Positions 2,596 to 23,995 of a DNA stretch of 32,527 nt are shown here, piece by piece. The notes beneath the pieces are model-generated. The model searched no databases. It worked only from the letters and a program-made list of their open reading frames with translations, and had not been told where the DNA came from. Origin of the DNA: Anaerolineaceae bacterium. GTDB lineage: Bacteria; Chloroflexota; Anaerolineae; Anaerolineales; Anaerolineaceae. The first letter of the stretch is position 1, and every line of letters begins with the position of its first letter. The stretch covers positions 1 through 32,527 of the forward strand of contig PWSY01000042.1 in the NCBI GenBank assembly GCA_003563055.1. The letters run 5' to 3'. A program made the position numbers and the translations under genes.

Positions 2596-3171
2596 ATGGT
2601 AAAAAAGAACATCTATAAAAATTTATCTGGTCACTTAAAATGGTCGCCTCTGGCTTGGGGTTTAATTTTCGGCGTAATATTTGGCTTCTTGCTCCAAAAG
2701 GGCGGGGCAACCAATTATAATGTCATTCTCGGTCAGCTTTTGCTGACTGATTTTACAGTTCTCAAAATCATGCTGACTGCTGTCTTGACCGGGATGATCG
2801 GCATCTATGCCATGAAGAGTCTTGGCTGGGTTGAACTTCATGTTAAGGCCGGGTCGTGGGGAATGAATGGGATTGGGGGACTGCTGTTTGGAATCGGTTT
2901 TGCTCTCCTGGGTTACTGCCCTGGGACGATTGCAGGTGCCATAGGTAATGGCTACCTGGATGCACTTGTGGGTGGTTTAATCGGCATTTGGATTGGTTCC
3001 GGGATCTTTGCCGCACTCTATCCGAAACTGCGAACAGGCATCCTGAGGAAGGGCGAATTTGGTGATATGACTTTACCCAGGCTTATAAAAACCAACGATT
3101 GGGTTGTAGTGGTGCCTGTTGCTGTGTTGATTCTCTCACTGCTTGTCTGGTTGGAAAGTGCCGGCTTGTGA
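2596..3171 (+). CDS. YeeE/YedE-family sulfur transporter, second half-subunit
   Basis: A 191-residue membrane protein with about five hydrophobic segments and the conserved motif GYCPGT (C108), characteristic of the second member of paired YeeE/YedE proteins. The start at the ATG 2596 is favoured because GAGGTG at 2586-2591 precedes it; an in-frame TTG at 2578 would overlap the previous gene and has no such site. Only 7 bases separate it from the upstream stop, so the two halves are very probably co-translated and assemble into one transporter. The cytoplasmic loop between the hydrophobic segments around residues 150-165 is charged. No cysteine other than C108 stands out. Confidence 0.85.
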   Translation: MVKKNIYKNLSGHLKWSPLAWGLIFGVIFGFLLQKGGATNYNVILGQLLLTDFTVLKIMLTAVLTGMIGIYAMKSLGWVELHVKAGSWGMNGIGGLLFGIGFALLGYCPGTIAGAIGNGYLDALVGGLIGIWIGSGIFAALYPKLRTGILRKGEFGDMTLPRLIKTNDWVVVVPVAVLILSLLVWLESAGL

Positions 3172-3223
3172 TGAACAGGTCCTTGTTGATCGTCGTCTCA
3201 AATGATCAATTAATTACTTTATC

Positions 3224-3565
3224 TCAGACCTGTTCGAAGTATTCAACAGAAACCCCAAAAAGTGTCGCGCCGCCCTTATGGGATTCAAGAACTGGCATGT
3301 AGCTAAGTTCTGCTGTTCCATGGATTGGTAAGGGGACATACTTTTTATAGGGTTGGCAATACTTTTCAACAAGCCTGTCAAGCTCGGTGATGCGAGATTC
3401 GTTTAGTCCCAAGATCAGGCACAGGGATGGCTCATAAAAAAGGCTGCTGTTACTGTCAATAATTGTGAAGTAGAAGTCCTTTTCAGTCAATTTCGCCATC
3501 AATTTTCTGGATTGCGGTCTTGAAACAACAATACATACCAGCCAGTTAATTTCCAGGTCAGGCAT
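3224..3565 (-). CDS. Divergent cyclic-di-AMP receptor-like (DarA/PstA, PII-like) protein
   Basis: A 113-residue soluble protein that aligns from memory with the DarA/PstA family. It has an opening beta strand INWLVCIVV, a central segment ending in LCLILGLNESRI, and a closing KGGATLFGVSVEYFEQV that matches the family's GGATVFVMPVDAFHQF-type end. Members are trimeric PII-like proteins that bind cyclic-di-AMP. The glycine-rich nucleotide-binding segment that normally follows strand 2 (GGF..GNTT) is replaced here by SNSSLFYEPS, so ligand binding is uncertain. The ATG follows GAGGA at 7 bases. It converges on the sulfur operon with only 52 bases between stops and no obvious terminator. The family assignment is fairly secure; the ligand is not. 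Confidence 0.7.
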   Translation of the reverse strand: MPDLEINWLVCIVVSRPQSRKLMAKLTEKDFYFTIIDSNSSLFYEPSLCLILGLNESRITELDRLVEKYCQPYKKYVPLPIHGTAELSYMPVLESHKGGATLFGVSVEYFEQV

Positions 3566-3589
3566 TTAAAATCCTCTGCTTCATGTTTG

Positions 3590-3619
3590 ATATTAACTTA
3601 CTATCATTTTACAATACAA
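3590..3619 (-). promoter_or_regulatory. Predicted promoter of the DarA-like gene
   Basis: Read on the minus strand, TTGTAT (3614-3619) and TAATAT (3590-3595) are separated by 18 bases. The predicted transcript starts about 15-20 bases before the ATG at 3565, with the GAGGA ribosome binding site inside that leader. Confidence 0.4.
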
Positions 3620-3661
3620 ACAGGCAGAGTCTATATATAAAAACAAAAAGAACAACTCAAA

Positions 3662-3719
3662 CAGCCCTGCTGTTGAAGGTTGACCAACCCCCAAAATTCC
3701 CTTGTAGACTGAGTAATTA
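3662..3719 (+). repeat. Dispersed intergenic repeat, copy A
   Basis: Starting CAGCCCTGCTGTTGAAGGTT and ending CTTGTAGACTGAGTAATTA, this 58-base stretch matches the reverse complement of 13192-13254 at most positions, with a few bases of length difference in the middle. A third, partial match in the orientation of copy B lies at 32485-32527. It sits in an intergenic space between a divergent gene pair and contains no open frame of its own. The identity could be a small mobile element remnant or a structured regulatory repeat. Confidence 0.65.
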
Positions 3720-3768
3720 GAAACAATCAATCATGTAATTGAATTTACCTCTAAAAATCTTTTTGCCG

Positions 3769-3777
3769 TGGTAAAAT
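3769..3777 (+). promoter_or_regulatory. Possible extended -10 promoter of the small membrane-protein pair
   Basis: TGGTAAAAT at 3769-3777 fits an extended -10 (TG-n-TAAAAT). It has no good -35 box upstream. It lies about 33 bases before the ATG at 3811, which would leave a leader containing the AGGAAGGG ribosome binding site. Confidence 0.3.
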
Positions 3778-3810
3778 TCTGGAGGATGAGTGTTTTTGAG
3801 GAAGGGATCC

Positions 3811-3993
3811 ATGGAAAAGAGGCGTAAGAAATCATATCTGATCCTGTTATTGATATCGATCGTTATCTGTGGTTGTCCAGGGTGTTTCTTGATTGGTCCG
3901 GGGTTCATAAATATAATCGATGTTTTAGGACGGACCCAAGCTATTGACGACCTATTATTTAATTTTGGTGAGGGTTTCATTCAAGGTGGCTGA
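3811..3993 (+). CDS. Small membrane protein, unknown function
   Basis: A 60-residue product starting MEKRRKKSY, followed by a hydrophobic helix (about residues 9-30) that contains three cysteines (CGCPGC). The positive N-terminus plus helix resembles a signal anchor, and ICGC is a poor lipobox, so a small membrane-anchored protein is the best description. The ATG at 3811 is favoured over an in-frame GTG at 3790 because AGGAAGGG precedes it at the right distance. It overlaps nothing and its stop abuts the start of the next tiny gene, suggesting translational coupling. I do not recognise the family. Confidence 0.55.
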   Translation: MEKRRKKSYLILLLISIVICGCPGCFLIGPGFINIIDVLGRTQAIDDLLFNFGEGFIQGG

Positions 3994-8579: not shown

Positions 8580-9599
8580 TTACATTAACTCGCTCGCAGC
8601 ATCGATAGGGCTTATTTTTCTTTGGATCAGATCGGCGATAACTGATTCAAATTTATCCTCGTCAAGGTTTTGTTGCCAGCGATGGACCAGCTTATCCTTG
8701 ATAAGTGCTTCCAGGGCATATCTCAATCGCTGGGTTTCCTTTTGCTCCCATAAACAGGAGGTGACCAGAAAAGACCGATGACATTGGATTGCATTAATTA
8801 AGCCTTCAACCCCTTTGCCTTCGCTGGCAATCGTTTTTAAAATGGGTGTTTTCCAACCTGGTTGTTCTATTGGGACGTAGAACGCTTCACCTGGGAGGTC
8901 ATCACGCAGGTGTTTGCCCAAGGTAAAGAGCTTCCCTTGGCTATTTTGGCCCATTTCAAGCATGGCTTGCAGAGTGTTAGCTGTGTTGTCTGCACCAGGT
9001 CGGTCGGCTTTATTAACCACGAGGATATCTGCAATTTCAAGAATGCCGGCTTTGATCGCCTGGATACCATCCCCCAGGCCGGGTGCATCGACCACGACCA
9101 CGGTGTGGGCAAGGCGTGAGATTTCCACTTCAGCCTGACCAGCGCCTATGGTTTCAACCAAAATTATGTCGAAACCGGCACTATCCAGAATTGTTGCGAA
9201 GGCGGCCGTGTTTTGGGCAATGCCACCGAGGGTACCGCGTGAAGCCATGGAACGAATAAACACGCCTTTATCACCAGCCAGGGCCTGCATGCGAATACGG
9301 TCTCCAAGGAGGGCACCCCCTGTGAATGGGCTGGTGGGGTCTACAGCAATAATGGCAATTTTGGGGGCAGGATTTTCGTCATTTGTTTGTCTGAGCAATT
9401 TAACCAACTGGTTGACGAGTGTACTTTTCCCGGTCCCAGGGGCGCCGGTCATGCCTATCAAATGCGCGTGTCCACTGTATGGGAAGAGAGCCGATTCAAG
9501 CTTTTGACCCTCTGGAGTGCCATTTTCAACTGCGGTCAGGGCGCGTGAAAGGTTTAACCGGTCTCCCTGGCGGATTGCATCTGGGTCAATCTGCGGCAT
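8580..9599 (-). CDS. meaB: MeaB/ArgK G3E-family GTPase (methylmalonyl-CoA mutase chaperone)
   Basis: A 339-residue GTPase that loads and protects adenosylcobalamin in methylmalonyl-CoA mutase-type enzymes. The Walker A loop is GAPGTGKST (residues 52-60). Next come the switch region AVDPTSPFTGGALLGDRIRM, the conserved VETIGAGQAEVEI and the guanine-specificity motif NKAD. The C-terminal helical arm used for dimerisation is present (about 290-339). It starts 2 bases after the stop of the B12-binding subunit gene, so the two are translationally coupled, and no separate strong ribosome binding site is seen. The pairing firmly links it to a B12-dependent acyl-CoA mutase. The large catalytic subunit is not in this window. 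Confidence 0.9.
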   Translation of the reverse strand: MPQIDPDAIRQGDRLNLSRALTAVENGTPEGQKLESALFPYSGHAHLIGMTGAPGTGKSTLVNQLVKLLRQTNDENPAPKIAIIAVDPTSPFTGGALLGDRIRMQALAGDKGVFIRSMASRGTLGGIAQNTAAFATILDSAGFDIILVETIGAGQAEVEISRLAHTVVVVDAPGLGDGIQAIKAGILEIADILVVNKADRPGADNTANTLQAMLEMGQNSQGKLFTLGKHLRDDLPGEAFYVPIEQPGWKTPILKTIASEGKGVEGLINAIQCHRSFLVTSCLWEQKETQRLRYALEALIKDKLVHRWQQNLDEDKFESVIADLIQRKISPIDAASELM

Positions 9600-9601
9600 A
9601 G

Positions 9602-10009
9602 TTAATTGCTCTGCGGGTGTAGGGAATCTTTGATGTCAGCAACGACAATTTGGGTATTGGTCCCTGGACCATAAACTGCAGATACGCCTTTATCCAACAG
9701 CCTGGGAATATCCTTTTGTGGAATGATTCCGCCAACGAAGACCCTAACATCATCAAGGCCATATTCTAATAGTTTTTCCATCACAGCCGGTACCAGTGCA
9801 TTATGCGCACCTGATAGAATGGAAAGCCCAAGCACGTCTACATTTTCCTGTAGGGCTGCTTCAGCAATCATCTCGGGAGTCTGGCGGAGCCCGGTGTAGA
9901 TGACTTCCATGCCAGCATCTCGCAGAGCGCGAGCGATCACCTTGGCGCCACGATCGTGTCCGTCAAGTCCAGGTTTTGCGATCAGCACACGAACTTTTCT
10001 TTGGGTCAT
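9602..10009 (-). CDS. Methylmalonyl-CoA mutase-type B12-binding small subunit
   Basis: A 135-residue free-standing cobalamin-binding domain. The lower-ligand histidine lies in the motif [10 protein letters not shown] (residues 14-23), followed by the nucleotide-tail-binding SILSGAH and the glycine loop VFVGGIIP. Full mutases have this domain at the C-terminus of the large chain; split forms with a separate approximately 130-residue subunit are common in archaea and several bacterial phyla. It is the first gene of the minus-strand block and precedes meaB by 2 bases. Its partner could convert methylmalonyl-CoA and succinyl-CoA or a related isobutyryl/hydroxyisobutyryl substrate. GGAG lies 5 bases before the ATG. 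Confidence 0.9.
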
Positions 10010-10041
10010 TCAATGCTCCATAAGGTTCTATTGCAACTCTG

Positions 10042-10047
10042 ATTATA
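10042..10047 (-). promoter_or_regulatory. Probable -10 box for the B12 subunit-meaB-aspS-prs-kamA transcript
   Basis: A perfect TATAAT on the minus strand lies 32 bases before the ATG at 10009 and would give a leader of about 25 bases including GGAG. No good -35 match is seen, so this is moderately supported. Confidence 0.4.
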
Positions 10048-10104
10048 CCGCGTTCACTGATATAAAAACTGAAATTCATGTTGATATTAGGCGCTTTCTC
10101 TTAC

Positions 10105-10133
10105 TTGCTTAGAACAGGAAGATTAATTAGAAT
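10105..10133 (+). promoter_or_regulatory. Predicted promoter of the small membrane protein/Vps62-like pair
   Basis: TTGCTT (10105-10110) and TAGAAT (10128-10133) are separated by exactly 17 bases. Transcription would start near 10140, about 30 bases before the ATG at 10171. It is arranged back to back with the -10 box at 10042-10047. Confidence 0.45.
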
Positions 10134-18114: not shown

Positions 18115-18139
18115 ATGGTGGTATTTGAGTGGAGAAAAA

Positions 18140-18643
18140 ATGACATTAAGAGAGCTTAATGCTTTTCCTGATCAGGTTCTGCGTCAACCAGCGCAACCCG
18201 TCAAGAAATTTGGCGAGGAATTAAAAACATTGGTTGATGATATGATCGAGACGATGCGAGATGCGCCTGGGGTAGGCTTGGCAGCACCTCAAATTGGCAT
18301 CTCAAAACGGGTGATCGTGGTTGAGTTTGGTAATGAAGAAGATGAAAGCATTCCAAAACAACTATATGTGGTGATTAACCCAGAAATTGTGCGTAAATCA
18401 GAAGATCAAATTGTCGGTATTGAAGGTTGTCTTTCCGTCCCGGGTTTGGTGGGTGAGGTGGATCGATCACAAATTGTTACTGTAAGTGGGCAAGATGTTC
18501 ATGGTGAAAAGATAAAAATTCGGGCGCAAGGTTGGCTGGCACGAATTTTTCAGCACGAGATCGATCATATTAATGGTGTCCTCTATACAGACCGGGCACA
18601 AAATATCTGGCAACCAGACCCAGAGGAGATGGATTCAATATAA
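18140..18643 (+). CDS. def: Peptide deformylase
   Basis: A 167-residue metallo-hydrolase that removes the formyl group from the N-terminal methionine of new proteins. All three family motifs are present: GVGLAAPQIG, EGCLSVPG with the metal-binding cysteine, and HEIDHINGVLY with the two metal-binding histidines and catalytic glutamate. The ATG at 18140 is used because GGAG lies 6 bases upstream; an in-frame TTG at 18125 is less likely. It is followed 7 bases later by recF. Length is at the lower normal end, typical of type 1 enzymes with a short C-terminus. Confidence 0.95.
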   Translation: MTLRELNAFPDQVLRQPAQPVKKFGEELKTLVDDMIETMRDAPGVGLAAPQIGISKRVIVVEFGNEEDESIPKQLYVVINPEIVRKSEDQIVGIEGCLSVPGLVGEVDRSQIVTVSGQDVHGEKIKIRAQGWLARIFQHEIDHINGVLYTDRAQNIWQPDPEEMDSI

Positions 18644-18644
18644 T
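18639..18644 (+). promoter_or_regulatory. TATAAT box overlapping the def stop, 6 bases before recF
   Basis: The hexamer spans the final ATA-TAA of def and ends 6 bases before the recF ATG. It has no -35 partner and may be coincidental because the stop codon supplies half of it, but recF lacks a ribosome binding site, so a leaderless transcript is one explanation. Confidence 0.25.
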
Positions 18645-18650
18645 TTCGTT

Positions 18651-19856
18651 ATGTTTTTAAAACACCTTTCGTTGACAAATTTCCGAGGGTTTTCCCGGTT
18701 GGATTTAAATATTCCCCGGGAAATCTTGTTATTGGTTGGCGATAATGCCCAGGGGAAGACAACCTTGTTGGAAGCAATCTATTTTCTTTCTTCGCTTACG
18801 TCCTTTCATGCCAGCTCTGATCGGCAATTGATCAATTATTCAGTCCCAGAGAACAGCATCGGTGTTGGGCGGATCATAGGTGAGTTTCAACGAAAAGACG
18901 GTAATCATCGGATTGAAGCCAGGTTGATCCGCGAGCCAAATGGTGGCAATGGTGGTTCTCGTTTTCGTAAAGAAGTTTTACTGGATGGGGTTAAAAGAAA
19001 AATAAGTGATGTTGTGGGCTGGTTTAATGCCGTCATTTTCATGCCCCAAATGGCGCGAATTATTGAAGAGGGGCCTGCAGAGAGGCGACGGTATCTTGAC
19101 ATGCTGATCTCTCAAGTATCACCTCTTTATAGTCAACATCTCAGCGATTATGGTCAAACGCTTTCCCAACGAAATGCGCTTCTCAAACAATTGGGAGAAC
19201 GAGGCGGTGATCATGGTCAACTGGCGGTATGGGATGGTATGTTGGCAAGGCACGGGGCGTTCATCATGCATGAGCGTATCCGGGCTCTTCGTGAAGTTGA
19301 GGAGACAGCCAAACGGATTCATTATGATTTGACCCATGGAGAAGAAGTGCTTCGCCTGGATTACCAGCCGGCCTATGATCCGATGTCCCTTCCTGAGGGA
19401 CAATTGCCTTTAGCAGTCACTGCATTAGCAGACCGATCTGGTTTTTCTCGTGAAGAAATCGAAGCAGGGATGCTGGAAAAATTGCAGAAATTGCAAAGGG
19501 AGGAGATCACCCGGGGCGTTACGACCATTGGGCCGCACCGGGACGAAATGCGGTTTTTGGGCAATCAGGTTGATCTGGGCGAATTTGGCTCGCGTGGTCA
19601 GGGACGGACGGCTTTACTGGCGATGAAATTGGCCGAGGTGAGCTGGCTTAAACAGCGCACCAGCGATTGGCCGGTGTTGTTATTCGATGAGACGATGTCT
19701 GAGCTGGATATCCAAAGGCGTTTGGACCTTTTGTCTGGCATATCCGAATGTGACCAGGCTATTTTGACATCCACAGATTTGAGTATGTTTGATGGAGCAT
19801 TTGTAAACGCGCATACGGTCTGGCATGTGGCTGGTGGGATGGTCTCTGCTCAATAG
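18651..19856 (+). CDS. recF: DNA replication and repair ATPase RecF
   Basis: A 401-residue SMC-like ATPase that loads RecA at single-strand gaps with RecO and RecR. It starts MFLKHLSLTNFRGFSRLDL, as RecF proteins do, then Walker A GDNAQGKTTLLEAIYFLS, the ARIIEEGPAERRRYLDMLI segment, the signature motif SRGQGRTALLAMKLAE and the Walker B/D-loop region VLLFDETMSELDIQRR. The signature has QG where QQ is usual, a minor change. The ATG at 18651 fits homologues; upstream in-frame sequence overlaps def in another frame. No clear Shine-Dalgarno site precedes it. Classical neighbours dnaA, dnaN and gyrB are absent, so recF is detached from the origin region here. Confidence 0.93.
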   Translation: MFLKHLSLTNFRGFSRLDLNIPREILLLVGDNAQGKTTLLEAIYFLSSLTSFHASSDRQLINYSVPENSIGVGRIIGEFQRKDGNHRIEARLIREPNGGNGGSRFRKEVLLDGVKRKISDVVGWFNAVIFMPQMARIIEEGPAERRRYLDMLISQVSPLYSQHLSDYGQTLSQRNALLKQLGERGGDHGQLAVWDGMLARHGAFIMHERIRALREVEETAKRIHYDLTHGEEVLRLDYQPAYDPMSLPEGQLPLAVTALADRSGFSREEIEAGMLEKLQKLQREEITRGVTTIGPHRDEMRFLGNQVDLGEFGSRGQGRTALLAMKLAEVSWLKQRTSDWPVLLFDETMSELDIQRRLDLLSGISECDQAILTSTDLSMFDGAFVNAHTVWHVAGGMVSAQ

Positions 19857-19904: not shown

Positions 19905-21014
19905 TTATCTTTCCATGGTTTCATGCGCTACCTGCCGCCCAACATCGGTTAAGTCCACCTGACCATTACTTTGGAGAACCCAATTGGATCTTTCAGACCG
20001 TTTGATTACCTGCACAGTGAAATCGGGGCTCCAGTCCATTTCCTCATGCATATGTTCAATGCTGCTTTCATCTCTGTAATTTTCCGAATGTTCATGGTTT
20101 AATAGATGGATGAGCAACATTTTCTTAGCAAAATCCCATTTTTGCCTTTCTTGGCGTTGTAATTGTGCAATGATGCCATGGTCTGGCGCAAAGAGGAAGG
20201 CAACCATAAACAGCACGCCCACCATTGTTGACATGCTGCCTGCGATGGAAGCGTCCAAAAGATGTGCCATCCAATATCCGCTGACGGCGCTGATAATTCC
20301 AAGGATGACACTCAGCAAGAGCATCAAGGGTAGTTTTTTGGTCAATAAATGTGCTGTTGCTGCTGGCCCAATCAGGAAAGCGATAACCAAAATTGACCCT
20401 ACCGCATCAAAAGCACCTACAGTAGTTATCGAGACCAAGGAAATTAATAAATAATGGATCAATCCGGGCATGAAACCCAATGTGGCAGCTAAGCCGGCAT
20501 CAAAGGTTGAGAGTTTTAGCTCTTTGTAAAAAAGGAGGACAAAGAGCAGGTTAACCAATAGAATCACACTCATCACAACCAGCGACTTTGGGCCCAGATC
20601 TAACCCGAAAAAAACAAACCGTGAAAATGGGGCAAATGCCAATTCGCCGAGTAATACCGAGTCAGTATCAAGGTGAACGCCTGAAGGAAGCCTGGAAATA
20701 AGAATGATGGCGACGCTAAAAAGTGCAGGAAAGACCAAACCGATGGCTGCATCTTCCTTTACCATTTTTGTGCGCGTTAAGAGCTCTACCAATATGAAGG
20801 TGATTACACCCATTGCGGCTGCACTAAAGATCAACAAAGGTGAGTTTAAATCACGAACAACAAAAAAGGCCAGGACAATCCCTAACAGAACTGTATGGCT
20901 GATGGCATCACTTGCCATGGCTAATTTACGAAGAACCAAAAAGACGCCAATTAATGCACATGATGCGGCGACGACAGATGCAATCAAAAGAATTTCCAGT
21001 TGTTGAACCGTCAT
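19905..21014 (-). CDS. Zn/Mn-type ABC importer permease with C-terminal winged-helix-like domain (second permease)
   Basis: A 369-residue protein. Residues 1 to about 285 form the polytopic permease of the ZnuB/MntC/TroCD family, with conserved segments LRKLAMASDAISHTVLLGIV and GAFDAVGSILVIAFLIGPAATA. Residues about 290-369 are a soluble tail with predicted helix-helix-wing character, ending NGQVDLTDVGRQVAHETMER. That LT-x2-G-x2-A ending is typical of DtxR-type winged helices. The start at 21014 is the ATG that overlaps the preceding permease's TGA (ATGA), with GAGGAC 7 bases upstream; a longer in-frame extension is unlikely. Together with the first permease it would make a heterodimeric membrane channel. 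The role of the tail is discussed as a finding. Confidence 0.85.
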   Translation of the reverse strand: MTVQQLEILLIASVVAASCALIGVFLVLRKLAMASDAISHTVLLGIVLAFFVVRDLNSPLLIFSAAAMGVITFILVELLTRTKMVKEDAAIGLVFPALFSVAIILISRLPSGVHLDTDSVLLGELAFAPFSRFVFFGLDLGPKSLVVMSVILLVNLLFVLLFYKELKLSTFDAGLAATLGFMPGLIHYLLISLVSITTVGAFDAVGSILVIAFLIGPAATAHLLTKKLPLMLLLSVILGIISAVSGYWMAHLLDASIAGSMSTMVGVLFMVAFLFAPDHGIIAQLQRQERQKWDFAKKMLLIHLLNHEHSENYRDESSIEHMHEEMDWSPDFTVQVIKRSERSNWVLQSNGQVDLTDVGRQVAHETMER

Positions 21015-22150
21015 GCAGATTGTCCTCGTTCTTCGTCTATTGCATTGGCTATTTCCCAACCGGTTTCGGTTAATGACCAATTATCTTCATCGTCACTGAT
21101 GACAAGCTTTTGATCTTGCAGTACCCGCAGGGTTTTAAGTGTGCCTCTGGACGTTGAAGCCGCTGTGCGGAGCACATTTATGGAGTGGCTGTGGGTAATC
21201 GTTTCATGTTGGTTTGCCAGTCGGTACAAATCAAGAAGTACGCTCTCAACCTCCACCTTTCGACGATTGCGAAGGGATTGTATCCACTGCCAGATCAGGC
21301 CTCTTTTAGGGGCAAAAAGAATCGAGATCAGCACAATGGAACTGATGGAAAGCACGATGGTTGGCCCTGTAGCGATGCGGGGGCCCAGGCTGCTGATCAT
21401 TGTTCCCATGATGCCAGAAAGGGCACCGAATAATGCAGCAAGAAGCACCATCACCTGCATGCGATTGGTCCACTGACGTGCAGCAACTGCAGGCGCAACA
21501 ATCATCGCGCTCATCAGCACAACACCGACGGTTTGCAGGCCGATCACAATGGCGATGACGATAAGGCTTGTGAGCAGGATCTCCAGCCTGGATAATGGTA
21601 AGCCAAGACTGGCCCCGAAATCAGGGTCGAAACTGAGCAGTTTAAATTCTTTCCAGAATAAAACCATGGTCAACAGGATGATCCCTCCAATAGTTGCCAT
21701 GGTGATAATATCGCTTGCTAAAAGTGCCGCTGCCTGACCAAATAGAAAACTTTCCAAACCTGCCTGGCGGGCATCGGGAATCCTTTGGATAAAAGTAAGC
21801 AACATGAGACCAAAGCCAAAAAACACAGATAGGACCAGGCCCATGGCCGTGTCTTCTTTTATGTGGGTAAGCCTGATGATGTGCATAATTATTACTGTGC
21901 CCAGCCATCCGGTTATAGATGCCCCAATAATCAGGATAAGGGGGGCTCTACTGCGAGTCAGAAAAAAGGCTAACACGATCCCAGGCAGCGCGGCATGAGA
22001 CATGGCATCACCCAGAAGGCTTTGCTTTCTGAGCACCGCATAACAGCCTATAGCACCGCTGATCAATCCCAGCGTAGCAGAACCAAGCGCAACTGTGCGA
22101 AGTGTGTAGTCGAAAATTAGATCGTAGATAATCTCCAGGATGCCAGTCAT
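21011..22150 (-). CDS. Zn/Mn-type ABC importer permease with C-terminal winged-helix-like domain (first permease)
   Basis: A 379-residue permease. It opens MTGILEIIYDLIFDYTLRTVALGSATLG and has the family segment LRKQSLLGDAMSHAALPGIVLAF, followed by GLQTVGVVLMSAMIVAPAVAAR in the core. Residues about 285-379 leave the membrane and form a helix-turn-helix plus wing: a stretch with SRGTLKTLRVLQDQKLVIS followed by WSLTETGWEIANAI closely resembles the DtxR/MntR DNA-binding domain. The metal-sensing and dimerisation domain of DtxR is missing. The start follows the ATPase gene's stop by 4 bases, with only a weak GTGAG site, implying coupling. Substrate is likely zinc or manganese, judged from the binding protein in the same operon. 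Confidence 0.87.
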   Translation of the reverse strand: MTGILEIIYDLIFDYTLRTVALGSATLGLISGAIGCYAVLRKQSLLGDAMSHAALPGIVLAFFLTRSRAPLILIIGASITGWLGTVIIMHIIRLTHIKEDTAMGLVLSVFFGFGLMLLTFIQRIPDARQAGLESFLFGQAAALLASDIITMATIGGIILLTMVLFWKEFKLLSFDPDFGASLGLPLSRLEILLTSLIVIAIVIGLQTVGVVLMSAMIVAPAVAARQWTNRMQVMVLLAALFGALSGIMGTMISSLGPRIATGPTIVLSISSIVLISILFAPKRGLIWQWIQSLRNRRKVEVESVLLDLYRLANQHETITHSHSINVLRTAASTSRGTLKTLRVLQDQKLVISDDEDNWSLTETGWEIANAIDEERGQSA

Positions 22151-23977: not shown

Positions 23978-23995
23978 AATTAGACATAGCTAATT
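23978..23995. promoter_or_regulatory. Perfect 6-6-6 inverted repeat, candidate metalloregulator operator
   Basis: AATTAG and CTAATT flank a six-base ACATAG spacer. It lies directly upstream of the -35 region of the metal importer promoter. Size and composition fit operators of the DtxR/MntR family in a general way; binding is inferred. Confidence 0.5.

Follow-up and report, generated by a model that had tools for sequence, protein, structure and literature searches.

A DtxR-type winged helix at the end of both permeases of a TroABCD-type metal importer, and its possible role as a transporter-resident sensor

The stretch of DNA analyzed here (the window, 32,527 nucleotides long) is contig PWSY01000042.1 of an Anaerolineaceae bacterium (assembly GCA_003563055.1). 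Its minus strand carries an operon of four genes, encoding a substrate-binding protein (SBP), an ATP-binding cassette (ABC) ATPase, and two ABC-3 permeases, permease 1 and permease 2, with the ATG of permease 2 overlapping the stop codon of permease 1. This is the gene set of a TroABCD/ABC-3 importer, and we assign it to the TroABCD type because the closest solved relative of the SBP is treponemal TroA. The substrate is probably manganese or iron, judging from the TroA match and from the manganese/iron models that head the matches of the ATPase. Both permeases continue past their membrane cores into a C-terminal tail (tail 1 and tail 2, respectively), and these tails are the subject of this study.

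Pfam matches were confined to the permease cores, leaving 94 residues beyond the core in permease 1 and 88 in permease 2. The alignment to the closest solved relative found by sequence stops at residues 284 and 280, respectively, and the tails are therefore not covered by that structure. An earlier note on this DNA had proposed that each permease ends in a DtxR-type winged helix without the DtxR metal-sensing domain, and both parts of that proposal hold. The first domain of DtxR/MntR/IdeR repressors was the best structural match of the tail 2 model and the best profile match, with the fold of tail 1 recognized by profile only. The tail 2 model opens with one long helix (residues 3-30), with H303 and H307 at the end of helix 1 and H321 and E325 in helix 2. 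Across the related operons described below, tails have 84-115 residues (the longest of 85 examples of tail 1 having 115) and end after the wing, and no permease open reading frame (ORF) was among the matches of the full-length DtxR profile. Accordingly, the tails are neither whole DtxR/MntR repressors, since the metal-binding/dimerization domain is missing, nor fusions of the YtgCR kind, since the fused part has no DtxR metal-coordinating domain. We infer that they lie on the cytoplasmic side of the membrane.

Table 1. Features of the window, and the related regulator family found at other loci (L numbers).
Feature	Position	Strand	Remarks
Tail 1, permease 1 residues 286-379	21014..21295	-	H315 and H322 invariant in 67/67 aligned tails; fold from profile only
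Tail 2, permease 2 residues 282-369, winged helix	19908..20171	-	H303, H307, E316, H321, E325, W328 at conserved positions
SBP, TroA/ZnuA-type metal-binding lipoprotein, 313 aa	22984..23925	-	PF01297 E 9.3e-82; best solved match Treponema TroA E 3.6e-87
Importer ABC ATPase, 254 aa	22155..22919	-	Top NCBIfam models manganese/iron ABC ATPase, scores below their cut-offs
Permease 1 (TroC position), 379 aa	21011..22150	-	ABC-3 core residues 16-279, then tail
Permease 2 (TroD position), 369 aa	19905..21014	-	ABC-3 core residues 9-275, then tail
18-bp inverted repeat AATTAG-ACATAG-CTAATT, DtxR-type operator 5' of operon	23978..23995		1 match of TTAGNNNNNNCTAA in window, 0.17 expected
Membrane-anchored DtxR-type family with FeoA domains	L173:5527-6534 (+); L035:2968-3987 (-); L180-L186		

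Histidine and glutamate residues are among the most conserved positions of the tails. Only four columns are invariant among 67 tail 1 sequences, and two of them are the histidines H315 and H322 of the window. In tail 2 the most conserved positions, apart from residues of the fold, include H303 (63/64), H307 (64/64), E316 (63/64), and W328 (64/64), and the position three before the tryptophan is occupied by H in 85 and by E in 12 of 104 sequences (other residues in 4, unmatched in 3), the window having E325. We considered whether the tail histidines might be the DtxR metal ligands, and this was ruled out, because the hhalign register places the conserved histidines elsewhere (ligand numbers from the available part of PMC2628430 and from general knowledge). 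The DNA-reading helix 3 has a mean consensus frequency of 0.50 and 0.46 in the two tails versus 0.58 in DtxR (55 proteins), and its non-hydrophobic positions in the tails are mostly at 0.2-0.4. The domain as a whole is acidic on average, with a mean charge of -1.40 (standard deviation, sd, 2.97) for tail 1 and -2.05 (sd 2.21) for tail 2, compared with +0.93 (sd 2.92) for DtxR; the window tails have charges of -3 and -5, respectively.

The distribution of tails was examined in the best 80 of 553 loci encoding a relative in a contig scan with permease 1, which together with 8 relatives and the window gave 89 loci, a set biased toward double tails because matches were ordered by how closely they resembled a tailed permease 1. 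Another 20 loci picked from tail 2 profile matches in a Chloroflexota sample brought the total to 109, of which 104 had both permeases complete. Both permeases were tailed in 81 of these pairs, permease 2 alone in 23, and permease 1 alone in none; without the 20 picked loci the corresponding numbers were 80, 4, and 0 of 84. In the Chloroflexota sample of 300 genomes, 69 had a tail 2 profile match at E<=0.001, or 66 once three non-permease proteins were set aside, and tail 1 was detected at E<1e-15 in 25 genomes, all within the 66; members of the 66 that were not read individually rest on the profile. The double tail is thus the minority form in that sample, the other 41 genomes having tail 2 with no strong tail 1 match. 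When 21 of the 41 were read, permease 1 was found to end 12-49 residues past its core in 19 and in G031, and in G312 the core was followed by 61 unlike residues. From these counts, tail 2 looks basic and tail 1 optional, in a sampling that was aimed at tailed permeases and did not seek tail-less pairs. On a tree of 108 permease 1 cores (L079, cut by a contig end, was excluded) the tail 1 state changes at least 9 times, with well-supported branches forcing 2 of the changes. Double tails occur in 17 named phyla, one of them archaeal, as counted over 75 loci (72 double, 3 with tail 2 only) mostly from metagenome-assembled genomes (MAGs), with phyla as given by the record titles. These counts rule out that the double fusion is rare, and having a tail on both permeases, which the earlier note had singled out as the striking point, is commonplace among the similarity-ranked pairs and is found in 25 of the 66 tail-bearing Chloroflexota genomes.

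One double-tailed operon (L122) comes from a MAG contig whose assignment is to a Woesearchaeota archaeon; transfer or mis-binning could account for it. On a plasmid of Paracoccus aestuarii (L205:3233-6243), a single reading frame covers permease 1 with tail 1 as well as permease 2, and tail 2 is in another (tails by profile); the tail-bearing permease gene there clusters with a gene annotated as Fur-family.

Tail 2 also appears to occur in treponemal tro operons. In the phylum to which a Spirochaetales MAG (G381) belongs, 6 of 120 genomes have tail 2. In three of these, permease 2 has 366, 366, and 367 residues and is followed by a gene for a DtxR protein of 222, 222, and 153 residues; permease 1 has no tail 1, and the tail of permease 2 carries the His/Glu set. 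Because these lengths equal those of TroD (366/367 residues) and TroR (222/153) in Table 1 of PMC2628430, where TroC has 298/304, the three operons were taken as treponemal tro operons. The available part of that paper describes the TroR operator as an 18-bp dyad and makes no mention of a tail on TroD. The pattern TTAG-N6-CTAA was not found 5' of the SBP gene in the two presumed treponemal operons that were checked.

The inverted repeat near the operon, to which the earlier note had drawn attention, proved to be a recurrent DtxR-type operator. TTAG-N6-CTAA was present 5' of 49 of 91 SBP genes in the related operons (for 18 of the 109 loci no upstream region could be used), compared with 0.42 expected from first-order Markov resampling per region (100 sets, maximum 3). 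Its frequency was independent of tail 1, being 38/70 with and 11/21 without that tail. Stand-alone DtxR proteins were encoded in 39 of the 89 loci, and in a whole-genome count covering 44 of the 80 scanned loci, PF01325 was matched at E<=0.001 in 42 tail-bearing genomes and above its cut-off in 39. The DtxR protein of a congener (G002), used as query, had matches in all 6 of the other congeners submitted and in G002 itself. Where the upstream region was readable, the operator was found in 14 of 34 genomes with a DtxR protein above cut-off and in 0 of 4 without, and a tie between operator and DtxR-bearing genomes, although in the expected direction, was not significant (Fisher p 0.28). In the reading we favor below, transcription of the operon would be controlled by a stand-alone DtxR-type repressor acting at TTAG-N6-CTAA.

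The three non-permease proteins with weak tail 2 profile matches, of 335-338 residues, are membrane-anchored DtxR-type proteins. They consist of a hydrophobic N-terminus (by eye), a P-x2-G motif, a linker, a winged helix, a DtxR metal domain, and FeoA domains, and such membrane-anchored DtxR-FeoA proteins were detected in 7 of 201 Chloroflexota genomes (E<1e-70). Aligned to a permease end together with its tail, their first ~110 residues scored 80 for tail 2 (98.2%) and 67 for tail 1 (97.5%), so that a DtxR protein with a membrane-proximal region resembling a permease end does exist. The winged helix alone scored 54.7 and 45 against the tails versus 129.6 against ordinary DtxR, which argues that these are DtxR proteins first, and the hydrophobic segment had no significant match to the permease core profile. 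At the four loci examined (L035, L173, L174, and L175), the DtxR-FeoA gene is followed by a gene for a ~280-residue FeoB-type GTPase (by motif). In genome G047, a DtxR-type gene lies immediately 3' of permease 2, and the double-tailed operon there (L035) is placed between two DtxR-type regulators, one membrane-anchored (2968-3987) and one ordinary (9433-10107). An MntR with twin FeoA domains was already known (PMC4805248, available in part).

Feedback control of ABC manganese and iron importers is understood mainly at the level of transcription. We tentatively favor, as the most likely reading, that the tails are a transporter-resident metal sensor acting on the importer, because they retain the DtxR fold and a His/Glu set, lack the second domain, and conserve the DNA-reading helix less. 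Since the histidines are kept while the DNA-reading surface varies across phyla, the tails may adjust the importer rather than genes. They would no longer read DNA and would sense cytosolic metal through the His/Glu residues, tail 2 being the main sensor and tail 1 an optional partner, and metal-loaded tails might alter the conformation of the importer or its ATPase coupling. The result would be a post-translational brake resembling the regulatory domains at the C-termini of the MetNI and ModABC importers, which, in the part of PMC10710835 available, are described as cytoplasmic substrate brakes (trans-inhibition). Several observations weigh against a sensor of this kind. The charge ranges of tails and DtxR overlap (sd 2.2-3.0), helix 3 still has a mean net charge of +0.8 in both tails (+3 in window tail 1, +1 in tail 2) compared with +1.5 in DtxR, and its conservation gap is modest and may come from faster evolution of the tails. 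The conserved histidines may have a structural role or form part of a protein interface, and part of the set is gone in two operons: in double-tailed L177 (2148-4381, minus strand) tail 1 is without both histidines and tail 2 retains the first but not the second histidine of its HxxxH pair, and in L176, which has no recognizable tail 1, tail 2 is without the second histidine. The joint loss across the L177 tails suggests a function common to both (n=1). In addition, 5 of the 44 tail-bearing genomes had no DtxR protein above cut-off, and the source assembly (75.5% complete) gave no match to the congener DtxR query.

These last two results count in favor of one of the roles raised in the earlier note, DNA binding by the tails at the inverted repeat; as regulators like chlamydial YtgR, one or both tails, cleaved or membrane-held, would repress the operon from there. 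The DtxR affinity of the fold, the operator itself, the slightly positive helix 3, and the membrane-anchored DtxR-type proteins of the phylum also speak for it, as does the precedent of YtgR, a protein that retains the metal-coordinating residues of DtxR, is released by cleavage, and binds the ytg promoter (review PMC5599777, available in part). We nevertheless reject it as the principal explanation and consider it improbable, since the second domain is missing, helix 3 is less conserved, and separate DtxR proteins coexist with the tails in 39 of the 44 genomes; moreover, the tails are acidic on average, the operator is equally frequent without tail 1, and the non-significant 0/4 versus 14/34 comparison runs the other way. 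The main competitor, unlikely though less so, is structural: the tails may be assembly, stability, or coupling modules beneath the ATPases that do not sense metal. The long first helix of the tail 2 model could transmit movement, and tail 1 is dispensable on the tree, but by itself this does not account for His/Glu being among the most conserved positions or for the H/E exchange. The least probable of the explanations is that the tails hand over metal or provide a docking site for a cytosolic partner, as might be compared with FeoC, which has a role on FeoB. The conserved histidines would suit a hand-over, and FeoC, which belongs to an iron importer, has a winged-helix fold, its DNA binding being still to be demonstrated (PMC7762939, available in part); no partner is known, however, and none was sought, the neighborhood profiles being those for DtxR, SBP, and permease only.

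A broader proposal, which we regard as possible yet more doubtful than the sensor itself, is that the DNA-binding domain of a repressor was turned into a metal-sensing brake on the very importer regulated by its family. Across many bacterial phyla and in one archaeal MAG, Tro-type importers would have an allosteric sensor of this kind on one permease or both, one that was overlooked even in treponemal TroD, with the DtxR-FeoA proteins as a sister form near FeoB. Permease-repressor fusions are already known, having been reported in 11 phyla according to the available part of the review PMC5599777. Neither the two-tailed form nor the His/Glu signature nor the tail of TroD was found in the literature searched, which gave no account of winged-helix tails on TroD-type permeases or of double tails (most subscription papers lay outside its coverage). 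If the sensor reading is true, a direct brake lies concealed in the "extra C-terminus" of a widespread importer family, repressor domains have been reused as transporter parts, and calling such permeases transcription factors would be wrong. A few point mutants, at H303, H307, and E316 in tail 2 and H315 and H322 in tail 1, would suffice to address the question.

Two further observations concern sequences other than the importer operon. In the window, a RecF-like ORF listed at 18573-19856 shares positions 18573-18643 with the end of a peptide-deformylase-like ORF (18125-18643; names by eye), and the true start of the RecF-like ORF is probably at ~18651. A second metal ABC system, with a different ATPase and SBP, is found on contig C179 of G000 (L042), and that contig includes no more of a permease than its first 52 profile positions.

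The tails share the first-domain fold of DtxR/MntR/IdeR repressors, but have no second domain, a less conserved recognition helix, and a His/Glu set at other positions. In chlamydial YtgC-YtgR, as here, the permease in the TroC position ends in a DtxR-type domain, whereas the window tails have no metal-coordinating domain and permease 2 is tailed too. The membrane-anchored DtxR-FeoA-FeoA proteins align with a permease end and tail through the end of the hydrophobic segment, the P-x2-G motif, the linker, and the winged helix; in contrast, they retain the DtxR metal/dimerization and FeoA domains, precede genes for FeoB-type GTPases at the four loci examined, and have no permease core. MetNI and ModABC would be alike in the proposed mode only, in which the substrate that has come in is detected by a cytoplasmic domain that halts the importer, and differ in that their domain is on the ATPase, whereas the window has its domains on the permeases. 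The window resembles the treponemal TroABCD/TroR system (PMC2628430, available in part) in having an SBP closest to TroA, the gene order, an 18-bp dyad upstream, and, judging from the three presumed treponemal operons, tail 2. The treponemal system differs in that its permease 1 has no tail 1, whereas the window has both permeases tailed and no troR in the operon.
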